Assembly: GCA_019749875.1 (NCBI GenBank)
Contig: JAIEPK010000152.1
Coordinates: forward strand, 1 to 39,658
From: Candidatus Binatia bacterium
GTDB taxonomy: Bacteria > Desulfobacterota > Binatia > UBA12015
Length of the DNA stretch: 39,658 bases
Reading direction: 5' to 3'
The position numbers were made by a program, and so were the translations under genes. Positions 1,054 to 38,925 of the stretch are shown here, piece after piece. The number at the start of each line of letters is the position of its first letter. Position 1 is the first letter of the stretch. The notes under the pieces were generated by a model. It saw only the letters and a list, made by a program, of their open reading frames with translations, was not told the origin of the DNA and made no database searches.

Positions 1054-1076
1054 GGTGATAATATACTTGCGTAACC
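1054..1076 (+). repeat. Left terminal inverted repeat
   Basis: It starts GGTGATAATATACTTG and ends TAACC. It differs from the right end only at positions 17-18 (CG against GT). The AT-rich GATAATATAC core is the only AT-rich stretch ahead of the transposase and may also supply its -10 element; that is inference. Confidence 0.93.
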
Positions 1077-1101
1077 CCGCGGACTCGGCTACTGTCTCTC
1101 C

Positions 1102-2103
1102 ATGCCGAGGAAGAACCAGCGGACGACGGCCGAACCGATCAGCCTTCAGGAGGCCATTCGGTTCTTCTCCGACGAGGATCGCGCGCACGACTACCTGCTA
1201 GAGCGCCGCTGGCCAGACGCCGAGGTTCGCTGCCCGACGTGCGGCAGCAGCGCCGTGCACTACCTCGCGAAGTACCGCCGCTGGAAGTGCGCGAGCGACC
1301 ACGCGCAGCGCCAGTTCTCGATCAAGGTCGGCACGATCATGGAAGGCAGCCCGCTCCCGCTGGGCAAGTGGCTCGCCGCGATGTGGATGGCCGCGAACTG
1401 CAAGAACGGCGTCAGCAGCTACGAGGTGCACCGCGCGCTCGACATCACACAGAAGAGTGCTTGGTTCATGCTCCAGCGCATCCGCCTCGCGATGCAGGCT
1501 GCCGGAAGCGGCGACGGCAAGTTCGACGGTCACGTTGAGGTCGACGAGACGTTCATCGGCGGCAAGGCGCGCTTCATGCACGCCCACAAGCGCGCCGAGA
1601 AGATCAAGGGCCGTGGCCCGATGGGCAAGGTCGCCGTCATGGGCCTGCTCTCGCGCCACGGCAAGGACGGACACAGCGTCGTCCGCACGACGGTCGTCAA
1701 GGACCGACGCAAGGCCACGCTTCAGCACGAGGTGCGCGCGAACGTCGAGACGGGCTCGTTCGTCTACTCGGATGAGCTGCTGTCGTACCAGGGCCTCGAC
1801 GGCGAGTACGTGCACAACGTCATTAATCACGCCGAGACCTACGTGCGCGGAAACGTGCACACCAACGGCATGGAGAACTTCTGGTCGCTCCTGAAGCGCG
1901 GCATCCGCGGCACGTACGTGAGCGTGGAGCCATTTCACCTCTTCCGCTACCTCGACGAGCAGGCGTTTCGGTTCAACCTGCGCAAGGACAAGGAAGGCGA
2001 CCGCGGGCGCTTCAAGGCGCTGCTCGGTCACGTCGCCGGCAAGCGACTCACCTACCGCACGTTGATCGGGGACGGGCACTCAGCAACCCTCGCGATGGCG
2101 TGA
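1102..2103 (+). CDS. IS1595-family DDE transposase
   Basis: 333 residues, about the usual family length. An N-terminal zinc ribbon is visible (Cys44, Cys47 in CPTCGSS; Cys63 in RRWKC). A helical region with IMEGSPLPLGKW and DITQKSAWFMLQRIR follows. The ISXO2-type catalytic domain has acidic residues Asp148 (VEVDETFIGG), Asp224 (VYSDELLSY) and Glu258 (NGMENFWSLLKRG). These are the standard signatures of IS1595/ISXO2 transposases, which cut and paste using the terminal repeats. The frame is intact and starts at ATG 48 bp inside the left end. It should be able to mobilise the whole element together with its cargo. Confidence 0.96.
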   Translation: MPRKNQRTTAEPISLQEAIRFFSDEDRAHDYLLERRWPDAEVRCPTCGSSAVHYLAKYRRWKCASDHAQRQFSIKVGTIMEGSPLPLGKWLAAMWMAANCKNGVSSYEVHRALDITQKSAWFMLQRIRLAMQAAGSGDGKFDGHVEVDETFIGGKARFMHAHKRAEKIKGRGPMGKVAVMGLLSRHGKDGHSVVRTTVVKDRRKATLQHEVRANVETGSFVYSDELLSYQGLDGEYVHNVINHAETYVRGNVHTNGMENFWSLLKRGIRGTYVSVEPFHLFRYLDEQAFRFNLRKDKEGDRGRFKALLGHVAGKRLTYRTLIGDGHSATLAMA

Positions 2104-2165
2104 AGCGGGAGCGGCGCGGCAAGCGGCGCCAGGGCCGATCCTAAAGCGCAACCCCTAACCAGCCG

Positions 2166-2606
2166 ATGGAGTTTGCCGTGACGCCCAAGCAGGTCGAACG
2201 TCTAGACGAAGCGCCCGCGTATCATGCCGAGATCGGCGTTGATCTTCCGCTTGACCGCTGGATCGGTTTTGCGGTCAAGGTGCTGCGCGACGCGGGAATA
2301 GAGACCTACGAGTCGTGCGAGGGGGGGAAGGGTCACGCCTTCCCAGAGCCGACAATCCGGTTTCACGGCACGAGTACGACCGGCTTTCATGCATTCAACA
2401 TCGCAATGGAGCACGCGTTGCCGGTGTATGCGGTTCGTCGCGCATGGTCTGTGACCGACGGCGAGCTGACTGGGCCGAACTGGGAGATGGTCTTTCATCC
2501 GCGCCGCACGCTGGTGCGGCGGCAGCAGCAGGCCGAGCGCGCTGGGTTGATGGGAGCGCCGCCGAAGCGACGCCCCCATCGGGTTATTGGTCAGCCCAGT
2601 CGCTGA
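2166..2606 (+). CDS. Small phage-type hypothetical protein (transposon passenger)
   Basis: 146 residues, 62 bp downstream of the transposase on the same strand. The core reads GIETYESCEGGKGHAFPEP, TIRFHG, then AMEHALPVYAVRRAW and GPNWEMVF, a compact alpha/beta pattern. I have seen similar uncharacterised proteins in prophages and other mobile DNA, but no function is known to me. No signal peptide or membrane segment is visible. The single Cys and conserved-looking Glu, Gly and His in the SCEGGxGH stretch could form a small functional site. The RBS is weak, and an in-frame GTG at 2178 is an alternative start. The last 16 bp overlap tail-to-tail with the 51-residue gene on the other strand. Confidence 0.75.
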   Translation: MEFAVTPKQVERLDEAPAYHAEIGVDLPLDRWIGFAVKVLRDAGIETYESCEGGKGHAFPEPTIRFHGTSTTGFHAFNIAMEHALPVYAVRRAWSVTDGELTGPNWEMVFHPRRTLVRRQQQAERAGLMGAPPKRRPHRVIGQPSR

Positions 2607-2746
2607 CAGTGCTCACACTTCCGGCGGCCACCGGTCCCCTGTCGCTTGTAGTAGGACTCGATGTTGTTGCCTTCGGTGCAGGCCGTGTCGTCGTGGTAGA
2701 CGGGCCGATCCGTCGCCTTGACGGAGTGCCAGGGATAGATTTTCAT
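2591..2746 (-). CDS. 51-residue zinc-ribbon-like protein (transposon passenger)
   Basis: ATG at 2746 is preceded on this strand by AGGACAGAACGGAA. The product is 51 residues: PVYHDDTACTEGNNIESYY in the middle and GGRRKCEHC near the end. His18, Cys23, Cys44 and Cys47 could bind one zinc ion. Very small proteins with the pattern Cys-x-x-Gly-Asn-Asn-Ile ... Gly-x-Gly-Gly-x-x-x-Cys-x-x-Cys are common in phages and integrative elements. Function is unknown; DNA or RNA binding is a guess. It is the distal member of the leftward-reading cargo genes and lies about 340 bp beyond the stop of the preceding one. Confidence 0.7.
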   Translation of the reverse strand: MKIYPWHSVKATDRPVYHDDTACTEGNNIESYYKRQGTGGRRKCEHCQRLG

Positions 2747-2771
2747 TTCCGTTCTGTCCTAACAGTTGAAG

Positions 2772-3073
2772 GCGCCCGCGGGCGCAATTGAAGAATTCGC
2801 ACTCGTTGCCGTCGCGTCTCGCCCGCTCGTGGCGTGAGCCCTGAAGCCCGCGCCACGAGCGCGACGGAGACCTAGATCATGGTGAAGCTCGGTCGTACCG
2901 CATGCGGGTCGCTCGCTTTCCCAAGACGTACGGAGCCTGCGCGTACGTCTTGACAGGGGCGCCCCTGGATGGGCTAGATACGAGGTAGTAGGGCCTCGGT
3001 GATCTAGTTCAGGCGCCGATCGCTTTCGGGAAGCCGGGCCGTGACGGTGGTCAGACCGTTGCGAGCCCGGCTT
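2772..3073. repeat. Cluster of six inverted repeats in the transposon's 339-bp gene-free tract
   Basis: Between the small zinc-ribbon gene and the winged-helix gene no further ORF is convincing, but the DNA is packed with dyads. They are: a 14-bp palindrome at 2772-2785; a two-part stem of 7 bp (2809-2815 with 2861-2867) and 10 bp (2825-2834 with 2851-2860); a perfect 11-bp stem at 2922-2932 with 2942-2952; a 12-bp palindrome AGGGGCGCCCCT at 2955-2966; a 6-bp outer stem at 2974-2979 with 3002-3007 that contains an inner CGAGG/CCTCG stem; and a 9-bp stem at 3031-3039 with 3065-3073. Possible roles are a structured RNA, tandem terminators or protein-binding sites. Confidence 0.75.
3031..3073 (-). 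terminator. Possible terminator of the leftward cargo operon
   Basis: A 9-bp stem AAGCCGGGC/GCCCGGCTT encloses a smaller ACGGT/ACCGT stem. It lies 12 bp past the stop of the winged-helix gene. No run of T follows, so factor-independent activity is uncertain. Confidence 0.45.
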
Positions 3074-3085
3074 TCTGCGTCTGCT

Positions 3086-3604
3086 TTATGTCATGGTACG
3101 TGCCCAGACTCCGTCATCCGAACGGGTCACTTTGCCGGCCTGCTTGAGTCCAACAAGGCCAAAGTGGACGACGCGCCCCGGCATCTTGTCGTCGAAGGAG
3201 TAGCCTCGCCTCCTGGCGTAGTGAACGATCTCGCCAAGGGTCATACCCCGCGTGCCCTCTAGCGCATCTAGGATGATGTCGCTGAGCGACTGCGGCTCGT
3301 CGTGCGGGGCGTGCTCTGCGCGGAACTCAAGAGCTAACGGCAGCGTGGCGCCGTTCGATGCAGTCGCGCTGCTGGCCTTGATCTCGATCAAGATCAGCCG
3401 CTTCAGAGCCTCCTCCTTTTCTGCCAGCACTGAGATGGCCGCCTCGTGGGCCTTGCGCTCTGTGCGCGTCTGGTCGAGCTGCTTCTCCAGCACCACTACG
3501 AAGTCGGTGCGGTTCTCAATGTCGTGCGCCACGCCGGCACTAAAGCGCTCTTCCCCCACTCTTGTCAAGACAGTGAGGAAAGTGGCCACGCACTGCGCCA
3601 CCAC
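3086..3604 (-). CDS. Coiled-coil plus winged-helix DNA-binding-like protein (transposon passenger)
   Basis: 172 residues. The middle (about 35-75) is rich in heptad-like charged and hydrophobic residues (LEKQLDQTRTERKAHEAA) and probably forms a coiled coil. The C-terminus (about 105-165) reads SLSDIILDALEGTRGMTLGEI ... GYSFDDK ... HFGLVGLKQAGKV ... DDGVW. This is the helix-turn-helix-wing pattern of small winged-helix domains in mobile elements. A stop lies 15 bp upstream in frame, so the start must be GTG at 3604 or the adjacent GTG. It may regulate the element's own genes; this is inferred from fold only. It is third in the leftward operon after the 133- and 64-residue genes. Confidence 0.7.
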   Translation of the reverse strand: MVAQCVATFLTVLTRVGEERFSAGVAHDIENRTDFVVVLEKQLDQTRTERKAHEAAISVLAEKEEALKRLILIEIKASSATASNGATLPLALEFRAEHAPHDEPQSLSDIILDALEGTRGMTLGEIVHYARRRGYSFDDKMPGRVVHFGLVGLKQAGKVTRSDDGVWARTMT

Positions 3605-3690
3605 TTGCCAAAGCTTCGCTCAAATCGGTCGATCGCCCTACTCGTAGCGAGGTGCAGGCTGACGAGCAAGCCGGGGCCGCAGTGGGTCGC

Positions 3691-3885
3691 CTACTGTGCC
3701 CGGCGTGTCGTCCGGGACTTCACGGGGGGCTTAGCTTGACGTTGCTTGTCCAGCGCTTCCCGCGGCACCGCCAGCACGCCTCGCACGACCTGATCGAACT
3801 TCCTCGCGGCGTCTTGGCCTTCGTGGAAGTGGTCGGGCTCGATCCTACCTGAAGCTGCGCGCACTGAGTCGGCGGGTTTTGGCAT
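3691..3885 (-). CDS. 64-residue small protein (transposon passenger)
   Basis: Starts at ATG 3885, ten bases after the stop of the 133-residue gene on the same strand, so it is probably co-transcribed and perhaps translationally coupled. The centre reads AARKFDQVVRGVLAVPREAL, followed by a basic tail (KSRTTRRAQ). Short proteins with a KFDxxVRxVLxVPKxxL pattern are very common in prophages and integrative elements and lack a known function. A GTG 42 bp upstream could extend it but would run into the preceding gene. Confidence 0.65.
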   Translation of the reverse strand: MPKPADSVRAASGRIEPDHFHEGQDAARKFDQVVRGVLAVPREALDKQRQAKPPVKSRTTRRAQ

Positions 3886-3895
3886 GGGTGAGAGC

Positions 3896-4297
3896 CTACC
3901 ACTGCCGATGTGCGCTGTTAACCGCACCGCTCTGGGGCTCGTACCAGCCGTCTGGGTATCGCCCGAGGACTAGCCCGAACAGCTCTTCACGAGGGAGTTG
4001 TCCGCGGCGCACCCGCCACATGCCTAGGACGGCGCGCGATCCGAACGAGCAGACTCCGATCCACAGGAGCCCGAAGCCCATCAGCGCACCGGTGTAAAGC
4101 AGACCGCCCGACTGGTCGCGGATGGGCACGCACATGCACGGATCGAGTTTGAACCACTCGTACAGGACATGTCCGGTGATGAACCAGAGCGGCGACGAGA
4201 GGCCGATCCCGGCGAGGAACGCGAAGGTGAGCGTCTGGCGATGCTCGGCGCGCAGATCGCGGAAGCGCAGGGCGTTGCGCCAAACCTGCGTGATCAT
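3896..4297 (-). CDS. Two-helix membrane protein (transposon passenger)
   Basis: 133 residues with two long hydrophobic stretches, about 22-46 (TLTFAFLAGIGLSSPLWFI) and 64-94 (GGLLYTGALMGFGLLWIGVC). A short loop with Cys54 and Cys56 separates them, and the C-terminal tail is polar. No signal peptide is visible. ATG 4297 has GGTGG five bases upstream on this strand. It is the first gene of the leftward cargo operon, starting about 106 bp inside the right end of the element. I do not recognise a family. Confidence 0.65.
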   Translation of the reverse strand: MITQVWRNALRFRDLRAEHRQTLTFAFLAGIGLSSPLWFITGHVLYEWFKLDPCMCVPIRDQSGGLLYTGALMGFGLLWIGVCSFGSRAVLGMWRVRRGQLPREELFGLVLGRYPDGWYEPQSGAVNSAHRQW

Positions 4298-4380
4298 GAT
4301 CCACCGGTACGGTCACGGCGGAGGTCACTCAAGGGCGTCGCATTGATCGCGAGGCTATAGCGACCGCCTACTTGACTCTG

Positions 4381-4403
4381 GGTTAACCAAGTATATTATC
4401 ACC
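4381..4403 (-). repeat. Right terminal inverted repeat
   Basis: Read on the complementary strand it starts GGTGATAATATACTTG and ends TAACC, matching the left end at 21 of 23 positions. The outer end is at base 4403. Confidence 0.93.
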
Positions 4404-4411
4404 AAAAGGAA
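4404..4411. repeat. Right target-site duplication (AAAAGGAA)
   Basis: Exact copy of 1046-1053, immediately outside the right terminal inverted repeat. Confidence 0.93.
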
Positions 4412-38380: not shown

Positions 38381-38405
38381 CGCGCCCACCTGCGGCGTGA
38401 CACGG

Positions 38406-38447
38406 GGGGCGTGGCGTCCCGCGCGGAGGGCGCGGACGCCACGCCCC
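38406..38447 (+). terminator. Strong intrinsic terminator
   Basis: Perfect 14-bp stem GGGGCGTGGCGTCC/GGACGCCACGCCCC with a 14-base loop, followed by TTT. It lies 25 bp past the secreted protein's stop and ahead of a convergent lipoprotein gene. Confidence 0.85.
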
Positions 38448-38481
38448 TTTCGCGTCTTCGGCAGGCTCGCCGAGCACCGCC

Positions 38482-38925
38482 TCAGCGCGCGATCGCGACG
38501 GCCTTGTACGTCGTGACGGCGTCGTTGCGCGCCATCAGCGCCGAGAAGTCCGCCTGCCCGCCGTTCGCGGGGATGGTCTCCGCGAGCGGCGGCGTCGTGA
38601 CGGTCGAGACCACGCGCCCCGTCGCGTCCATGGCGTCGACACGGATCGAGAGCTGGCTCACCGCCTTGTCGCCGTGATTGACGATCGTGCCGACGACCTT
38701 CTCGGTCGCGGGATCACCGGACTCCTCGTCGTGCAGGTTCACGATCGAGATGTCGGTCATCGGCGGCAACGGCGTCACCACCGTCTCGCGCACCTGGCGC
38801 GTGCTGCTCTGGACCTCGCGCCGCTCGGCCGAGCACGACGCGAGCAGCGGCAGCACCGCCGCGATCATGGCCACGCGCGCGATGCCGCATGGCCGCCAAC
38901 GGATCTCTCCGGCTCGATTCTTCAT
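38482..38925 (-). CDS. Small lipoprotein with FxLYD-like domain
   Basis: 147 residues from ATG 38925. The signal VAMIAAVLPLLASCSAE has the lipobox LASC. The mature domain is a short beta sandwich: DISIVNLHDEESGD, EKVVGTIVNHGDKAVSQLSI, VDAMDATGRVVSTVTT, ETIPANGGQADFSA. This resembles the FxLYD/DUF3426-type periplasmic domain, which is common but uncharacterised. Located 42 bp downstream of the partial gene at 38968 on the same strand. Confidence 0.75.
   Translation of the reverse strand: MKNRAGEIRWRPCGIARVAMIAAVLPLLASCSAERREVQSSTRQVRETVVTPLPPMTDISIVNLHDEESGDPATEKVVGTIVNHGDKAVSQLSIRVDAMDATGRVVSTVTTPPLAETIPANGGQADFSALMARNDAVTTYKAVAIAR

Follow-up and report, generated by a model that had tools for sequence, protein, structure and literature searches.

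The gene-free tract at positions 2747 to 3085 belongs to the passenger DNA of a transporter insertion sequence of the IS1595 family and is non-coding, and its excess of hairpins goes beyond what base composition accounts for. We infer, with a probability of about 0.4, that the tract is an array of plus-strand hairpins that would end transcripts before they enter the convergent gene p172. The original prediction had described a dense stack of inverted repeats in this gene-free interval and had placed it inside a transposon. All of the dyads that it listed were found, its bounds are exact, and inverted ends and a target duplication do bracket the tract.

The mobile element is complete and occupies positions 1054-4403 of the window, by which we mean the whole 39,658-nucleotide stretch of DNA that was analyzed. 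Its 24-nt terminal inverted repeats, at 1054-1077 on the plus strand and 4380-4403 on the minus strand, are 92% complementary to each other. They are flanked by identical 8-bp target duplications, AAAAGGAA, at 1046-1053 and 4404-4411. A DDE transposase of 333 amino acids is encoded at 1102-2103 on the plus strand (Pfam DDE_Tnp_IS1595, 1.4e-39; NCBIfam transpos_IS1595, 6.5e-53), and passenger genes lie between it and the right end. Passages of PMC3129680, which cites Siguier and others (2009) on IS1595, and of PMC7986276 state that insertion sequences can carry passenger genes, and passages of the same two papers use the term transporter IS (tIS) in connection with IS1595. The present element shares with the transporter IS of this family the IS1595 transposase, the inverted ends, the 8-bp duplication and passenger genes unrelated to transposition; it differs from them in its cargo, the set of p146, p51, tract and p172 being present in no other element examined.

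The cargo that follows the transposase consists of p146 (2166-2606, plus strand), p51 (2591-2746, minus), the tract, p172 (3086-3604, minus, 172 codons), p78 (3691-3927, minus) and p133 (3896-4297, minus). No function could be assigned to p146, which overlaps p51 tail to tail by 16 nt. The p51 gene, which was absent from the original prediction, has 51 codons and encodes a small cysteine-containing protein. No family was found for p133 in Pfam, PHROGs or NCBIfam, and these three collections revealed no replication or transfer protein among the cargo proteins, leaving the earlier suggestion that the tract is a replication or transfer signal unsupported. For p172, structure prediction gave a coiled coil and a C-terminal winged helix, a result that was confident in one model out of five (mean pLDDT 75.6). 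Its top Foldseek matches are winged-helix proteins, none of which reaches E 0.001, and in Pfam it resembles DUF5817_CT with a score below the cut-off of that family. Virus contigs, genome contigs and plasmids yielded no relatives of p172, and in 148 genomes of the class it matched, besides itself, only two sequences, both weakly and in the C-terminal part.

The tract measures 339 bp and extends from the ATG of p51, which position 2747 adjoins (the ATG is at 2746), to the stop codon of p172, whose first base is position 3086. Upstream of p51 lies a perfect 14-bp palindrome, GCGCCCGCGGGCGC, at 2772-2785. Hairpin H3 (2809-2867, plus strand) follows, with a 7-bp outer stem (2809-2815/2861-2867) and a 16-nt inner stem (2824-2839/2846-2861) in which 14 pairs, or 88%, are Watson-Crick. 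Hairpin H4 (2922-2952, plus) has a perfect 11-bp stem (2922-2932/2942-2952) and a 9-nt loop. The next dyad is a palindrome, CAGGGGCGCCCCTG, at 2954-2967, which is mutually exclusive with the base of H6, a long imperfect hairpin at 2958-3017 (plus) made of several parts with 6, 9 and 6 pairs. The last is the two-part hairpin H7 (3028-3076, plus), with 12 and 9 pairs around a bulged A; it carries CTTTCT on the 3' side of its plus strand and runs into a weak T tract, with 9 nt separating it from the p172 stop codon. The plus-strand fold also contains a possible long-range closure, GGCGCC/GGCGCC. Consensus scans called neither a promoter-like site nor an intrinsic terminator within the tract, the latter because its T runs are short. 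A tRNA or tmRNA identity was considered and rejected. Two short open reading frames are present, one of 24 codons at 2879 and one of 28 codons at 2902, and the latter has no convincing relative among phages (best E 5). The 24-codon frame (2879-2953, plus strand) is preceded by GGAG about 9 nt upstream and terminates at H4, an arrangement that could be due to chance.

Folding statistics uphold the earlier claim that the tract holds more structure than a single terminator needs. Over its whole length, the z-score of the folding energy is -4.5 on the plus strand and -4.0 on the minus strand, and none of 100 dinucleotide shuffles folded as well on either strand. The excess is concentrated in positions 2918-3076, where z falls to -6.1 on the plus strand (0/200 shuffles as good) and to -4.3 on the minus strand; taken as a unit, the first half (2747-2917) does not stand out, with z of -1.1 and -1.0 on the two strands. 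When folding energy was regressed on dinucleotide counts over a 12-base grid on both strands, the plus strand of 2918-3076 had the lowest composition-corrected energy of all 6,584 strand-windows in the 39.7 kb, a value that was not matched by any of the 6,502 lying outside the tract. A scan on a coarser grid took in 261 windows beyond the tract, and not one of them reached z -4 on either strand, but its windows within the tract, which miss the right frame, look ordinary (-2.1, -1.1 and -1.9 on the plus strand). A scan with 200-nt windows also placed its lowest value, -3.6, in the tract. Elsewhere in the 39.7 kb, the strongest excess of structure is that of 38390-38548 on the minus strand. The sum of ungapped hairpins in the tract, 31, was matched by one of 1,000 shuffles; however, in a sequence of 70% G+C, the tract is equaled in ungapped dyads alone by 10 of the 342 other windows, and therefore the number of dyads is less remarkable than the folding.

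The structure also leans towards one strand. Among the imperfect stem pairs, eight read as G.U and one as A.C on the plus strand (one-sided binomial p 0.02), a count made without the long-range pairing I8, which holds neither kind. In H6 and H7 all seven such pairs are G.U on the plus strand, three in the former and four in the latter, with no A.C. Because the stems were outlined partly by the plus-strand fold, which itself tilts to G.U, this bias is a lean rather than a proof. Taken with the stronger folding of the plus strand, the imperfect pairs lean towards an RNA made from that strand. A structured RNA is thus the best supported of the three functions that had been suggested for the tract: the plus-strand excess and the wobble count of 8 to 1 speak for it, and it stays unproven, with no homolog found.

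The searches for relatives covered both the DNA and the structure of the tract. In its own genome the tract DNA matched itself alone, and plasmid and phage records and a further set of 4 genomes gave no match. In three overlapping genome sets, there was no accepted relative among 395 genomes of the phylum; among 193 relatives the element was matched in 47 genomes, mostly in the transposase, and none of the matches listed lay within the tract; and among 396 genomes of a second phylum the cargo was matched in 17, none within the tract. One locus of this last set, L161, has a p51 relative without the tract. A 27-nt match within the tract, from locus L003 of the 395 genomes, was rejected as a chance match to what is apparently coding DNA. 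The 18 whole virus or plasmid records that bear relatives of p146 or p51 gave chance-level matches only. In Rfam 15, no family reached its gathering threshold, and the matches at E up to 10 are at chance level. We also built a covariance model, R1, of 2918-3076, in which a single sequence was entered twice, so that it detects near relatives only. This model was run over the window and 99 loci, over 145 genomes of the class and over 297 of the phylum, and the tract itself was its only match below E 0.1; the next match in the window and loci (E 0.15) is the tract's other strand. In virus contigs, the H4 dyad motif occurs in three stretches, two of them alike, with the match confined to the hairpin; the top motif of H6 occurs in one stretch without wider likeness, and the core motif of H7 in none. 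The literature excerpts that our search returned contain no report of a structured RNA as IS1595 cargo.

In order to see the tract against comparable elements, we scanned a genome collection with the transposase and took the best 80 of 539 relatives, which are mostly named Acidobacteria, with some Chloroflexi, Planctomycetes, Deltaproteobacteria and others. In 69 of these best 80, the left and right ends could be matched to each other, and 52 of the 69 have a perfect 8-bp duplication. The final set of 72 elements comprises 60 of the 69, 11 from relatives within the class and the present element; two duplicates were removed, as were elements in which fewer than three of the eight duplication bases agree and elements no longer than about 1.5 kb. 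The 72 elements are between 1.7 and 4.4 kb long, with medians of 2.65 kb for the element and 1.66 kb for the cargo, and none of the other 71 has cargo DNA in common with the present one at E 1e-6. In 14 of the 72, the cargo contains a 160-nt window whose z is -4.4 or less, and the present element ranks last among these fourteen. A strong hairpin stretch is therefore uncommon in the cargo of this group and is not peculiar to the present element. Windows below z -4 are only a little more frequent in cargo (27 of 1,162) than in the host flanks (16 of 1,173; Fisher p 0.09), so that cargo does not clearly stand apart in this respect. Among the 60 loci scanned for tRNA genes, two carry one in the cargo, Ala cgc in L045 (4889-4965) and Pro cgg in L046 (3210-3283).

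Our preferred reading is that the tract serves as a transcript-ending zone. The 16-nt overlap between the tails of p146 and p51 leaves no spacer there, so that a transcript running rightward out of p146 would first enter gene-free DNA at the tract. Hairpins H3, H4, H6 and H7 (2809-3076) would form a chain of stem-loops in the plus-strand RNA, which would stop rightward transcripts ahead of p172 and shield their 3' ends; transcription, termination and 3'-end protection are all steps that we infer. Read-through in the opposite direction, out of p172, may also be slowed by this zone, and the first bases of the tract probably contain the p51 start signals. Termination is favored by the difference between the strands of 2918-3076 (z -6.1 plus versus -4.3 minus), by the location of H7 9 nt before the p172 stop with CTTTCT at its 3' side, and by the strong hairpin stretches that some other members of the group have in their cargo. 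The missing sequence relatives would likewise suit spacer DNA better than a conserved RNA. The wobble pairs, G.U on the plus strand in 8 of 9 cases, also speak for this reading, with the reservation that the stem outlines are biased towards that strand. Like intrinsic (Rho-independent) terminators, the tract has G+C-rich stems before a convergent gene, and H7 offers the G+C-rich stem-loop; unlike them, it has no canonical T run, the sequence directly behind the H7 stem being CTTTCTGCG, was not called by the consensus scan, and holds several hairpins in series. One hairpin is enough for one terminator, and four are an excess. On this ordinary interpretation, elements of this IS1595 group carry varied cargo, which can include its own transcript-ending structures.

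The same hairpins could instead belong to a stand-alone plus-strand gene for a structured non-coding RNA, at about 2809-3076, an orphan class carried as insertion sequence cargo and acting in trans or in a ribonucleoprotein. This seems unlikely to us, even though the tract includes the most over-structured window of the 39.7 kb, combines a hairpin chain with a possible GGCGCC/GGCGCC closure and has the plus-strand wobble lean, for the tract has no Rfam match above chance, no homolog by DNA or by the one-sequence model of 2918-3076, and no promoter-like site. The bolder form of the idea, in which 2809-3076 represents a structured RNA of a new class, moved as the payload of an IS1595-family element, perhaps together with p146 and p51, and active in trans once in a recipient, strikes us as rather improbable. 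The large orphan bacterial RNAs GOLLD, ROOL and OLE are likewise long and built of many hairpins, but the tract is shorter, matches no Rfam family and has no conserved family that we could find. Were the RNA reading true, it would mean that an insertion sequence moves a structured RNA as cargo. A role for the minus strand, as a structured leader of p51 resembling a riboswitch or attenuator, would agree with the position of the tract immediately before the p51 start codon and with its ability to fold on that strand too. We nevertheless consider such a leader very unlikely, given that the structure is stronger on the opposite strand and that the leaders of p51 relatives are mostly unstructured. 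On the main list of 12 leaders, which includes near-duplicates, 10 have z above -2, as does L007, the other two being L059 and L061 at -2.3 and -2.4. None of the relatives' leaders resembles the tract, and a conserved p51 leader was rejected.

At the level of DNA, the dyads could form an operator array that is bound by p172 or another dimeric regulator and controls p51. Perfect palindromes fit dimers, one of them (2772-2785) lies directly upstream of p51, and the coiled coil and winged helix predicted for p172 agree with the earlier proposal that the tract is the target of a winged-helix protein. It is the dyads that do not behave as an operator family: no half-site shared among them was seen, and neither the region upstream of p172 nor the rest of the element repeats any of them, the nearest approach being a resemblance of 2768-2785 to a stretch of transposase coding sequence at 1993-2010. 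A wobble lean on one strand is also unexpected for DNA sites, and we regard the operator array as quite unlikely. Equally doubtful is a neutral remnant, in which the hairpins would have been inherited along with the captured cargo, possibly out of a phage, and have no present role. The uniqueness of the tract in the searches made, the convergent p146/p51 pairs of virus loci and the tRNA genes in the cargo of two related elements are consistent with such an origin; against it, the stems are intact, with 11 perfect pairs in H4 and 21 pairs in H7, and their imperfections are almost only G.U on one strand, as if pairing had been kept.

Parts of the cargo have a distribution of their own. Relatives of p146 and p51 are adjacent and convergent, tail to tail, in 8 of 16 virus loci fetched, and the pair is also found on a Mesorhizobium plasmid, where p146 is shortened (the pair loci are L059, L061, L062, L063, L067, L068, L070, L072 and L007). 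The pair is perhaps a small mobile module. The tract is absent upstream of the p51 relatives in the virus and Mesorhizobium plasmid loci fetched. The plasmid also holds, within a few kb of the pair, the remnant of a transposase from the same family as the one in the present element. Among the related IS1595 elements, the initial 150-190 cargo bases are about 70-90% identical within L101, L110, L111 and L116 and within L081, L086, L108 and L152, and the sequences then diverge, which suggests that cargo is exchanged downstream of a module that stays fixed. Several related elements (L079, L049, L086, L108, L081, L137 and others) contain short stretches, often directly behind the transposase, that are similar to the C-terminal half of p78 with weak E-values, and p78 is possibly an accessory gene of this IS1595 group.
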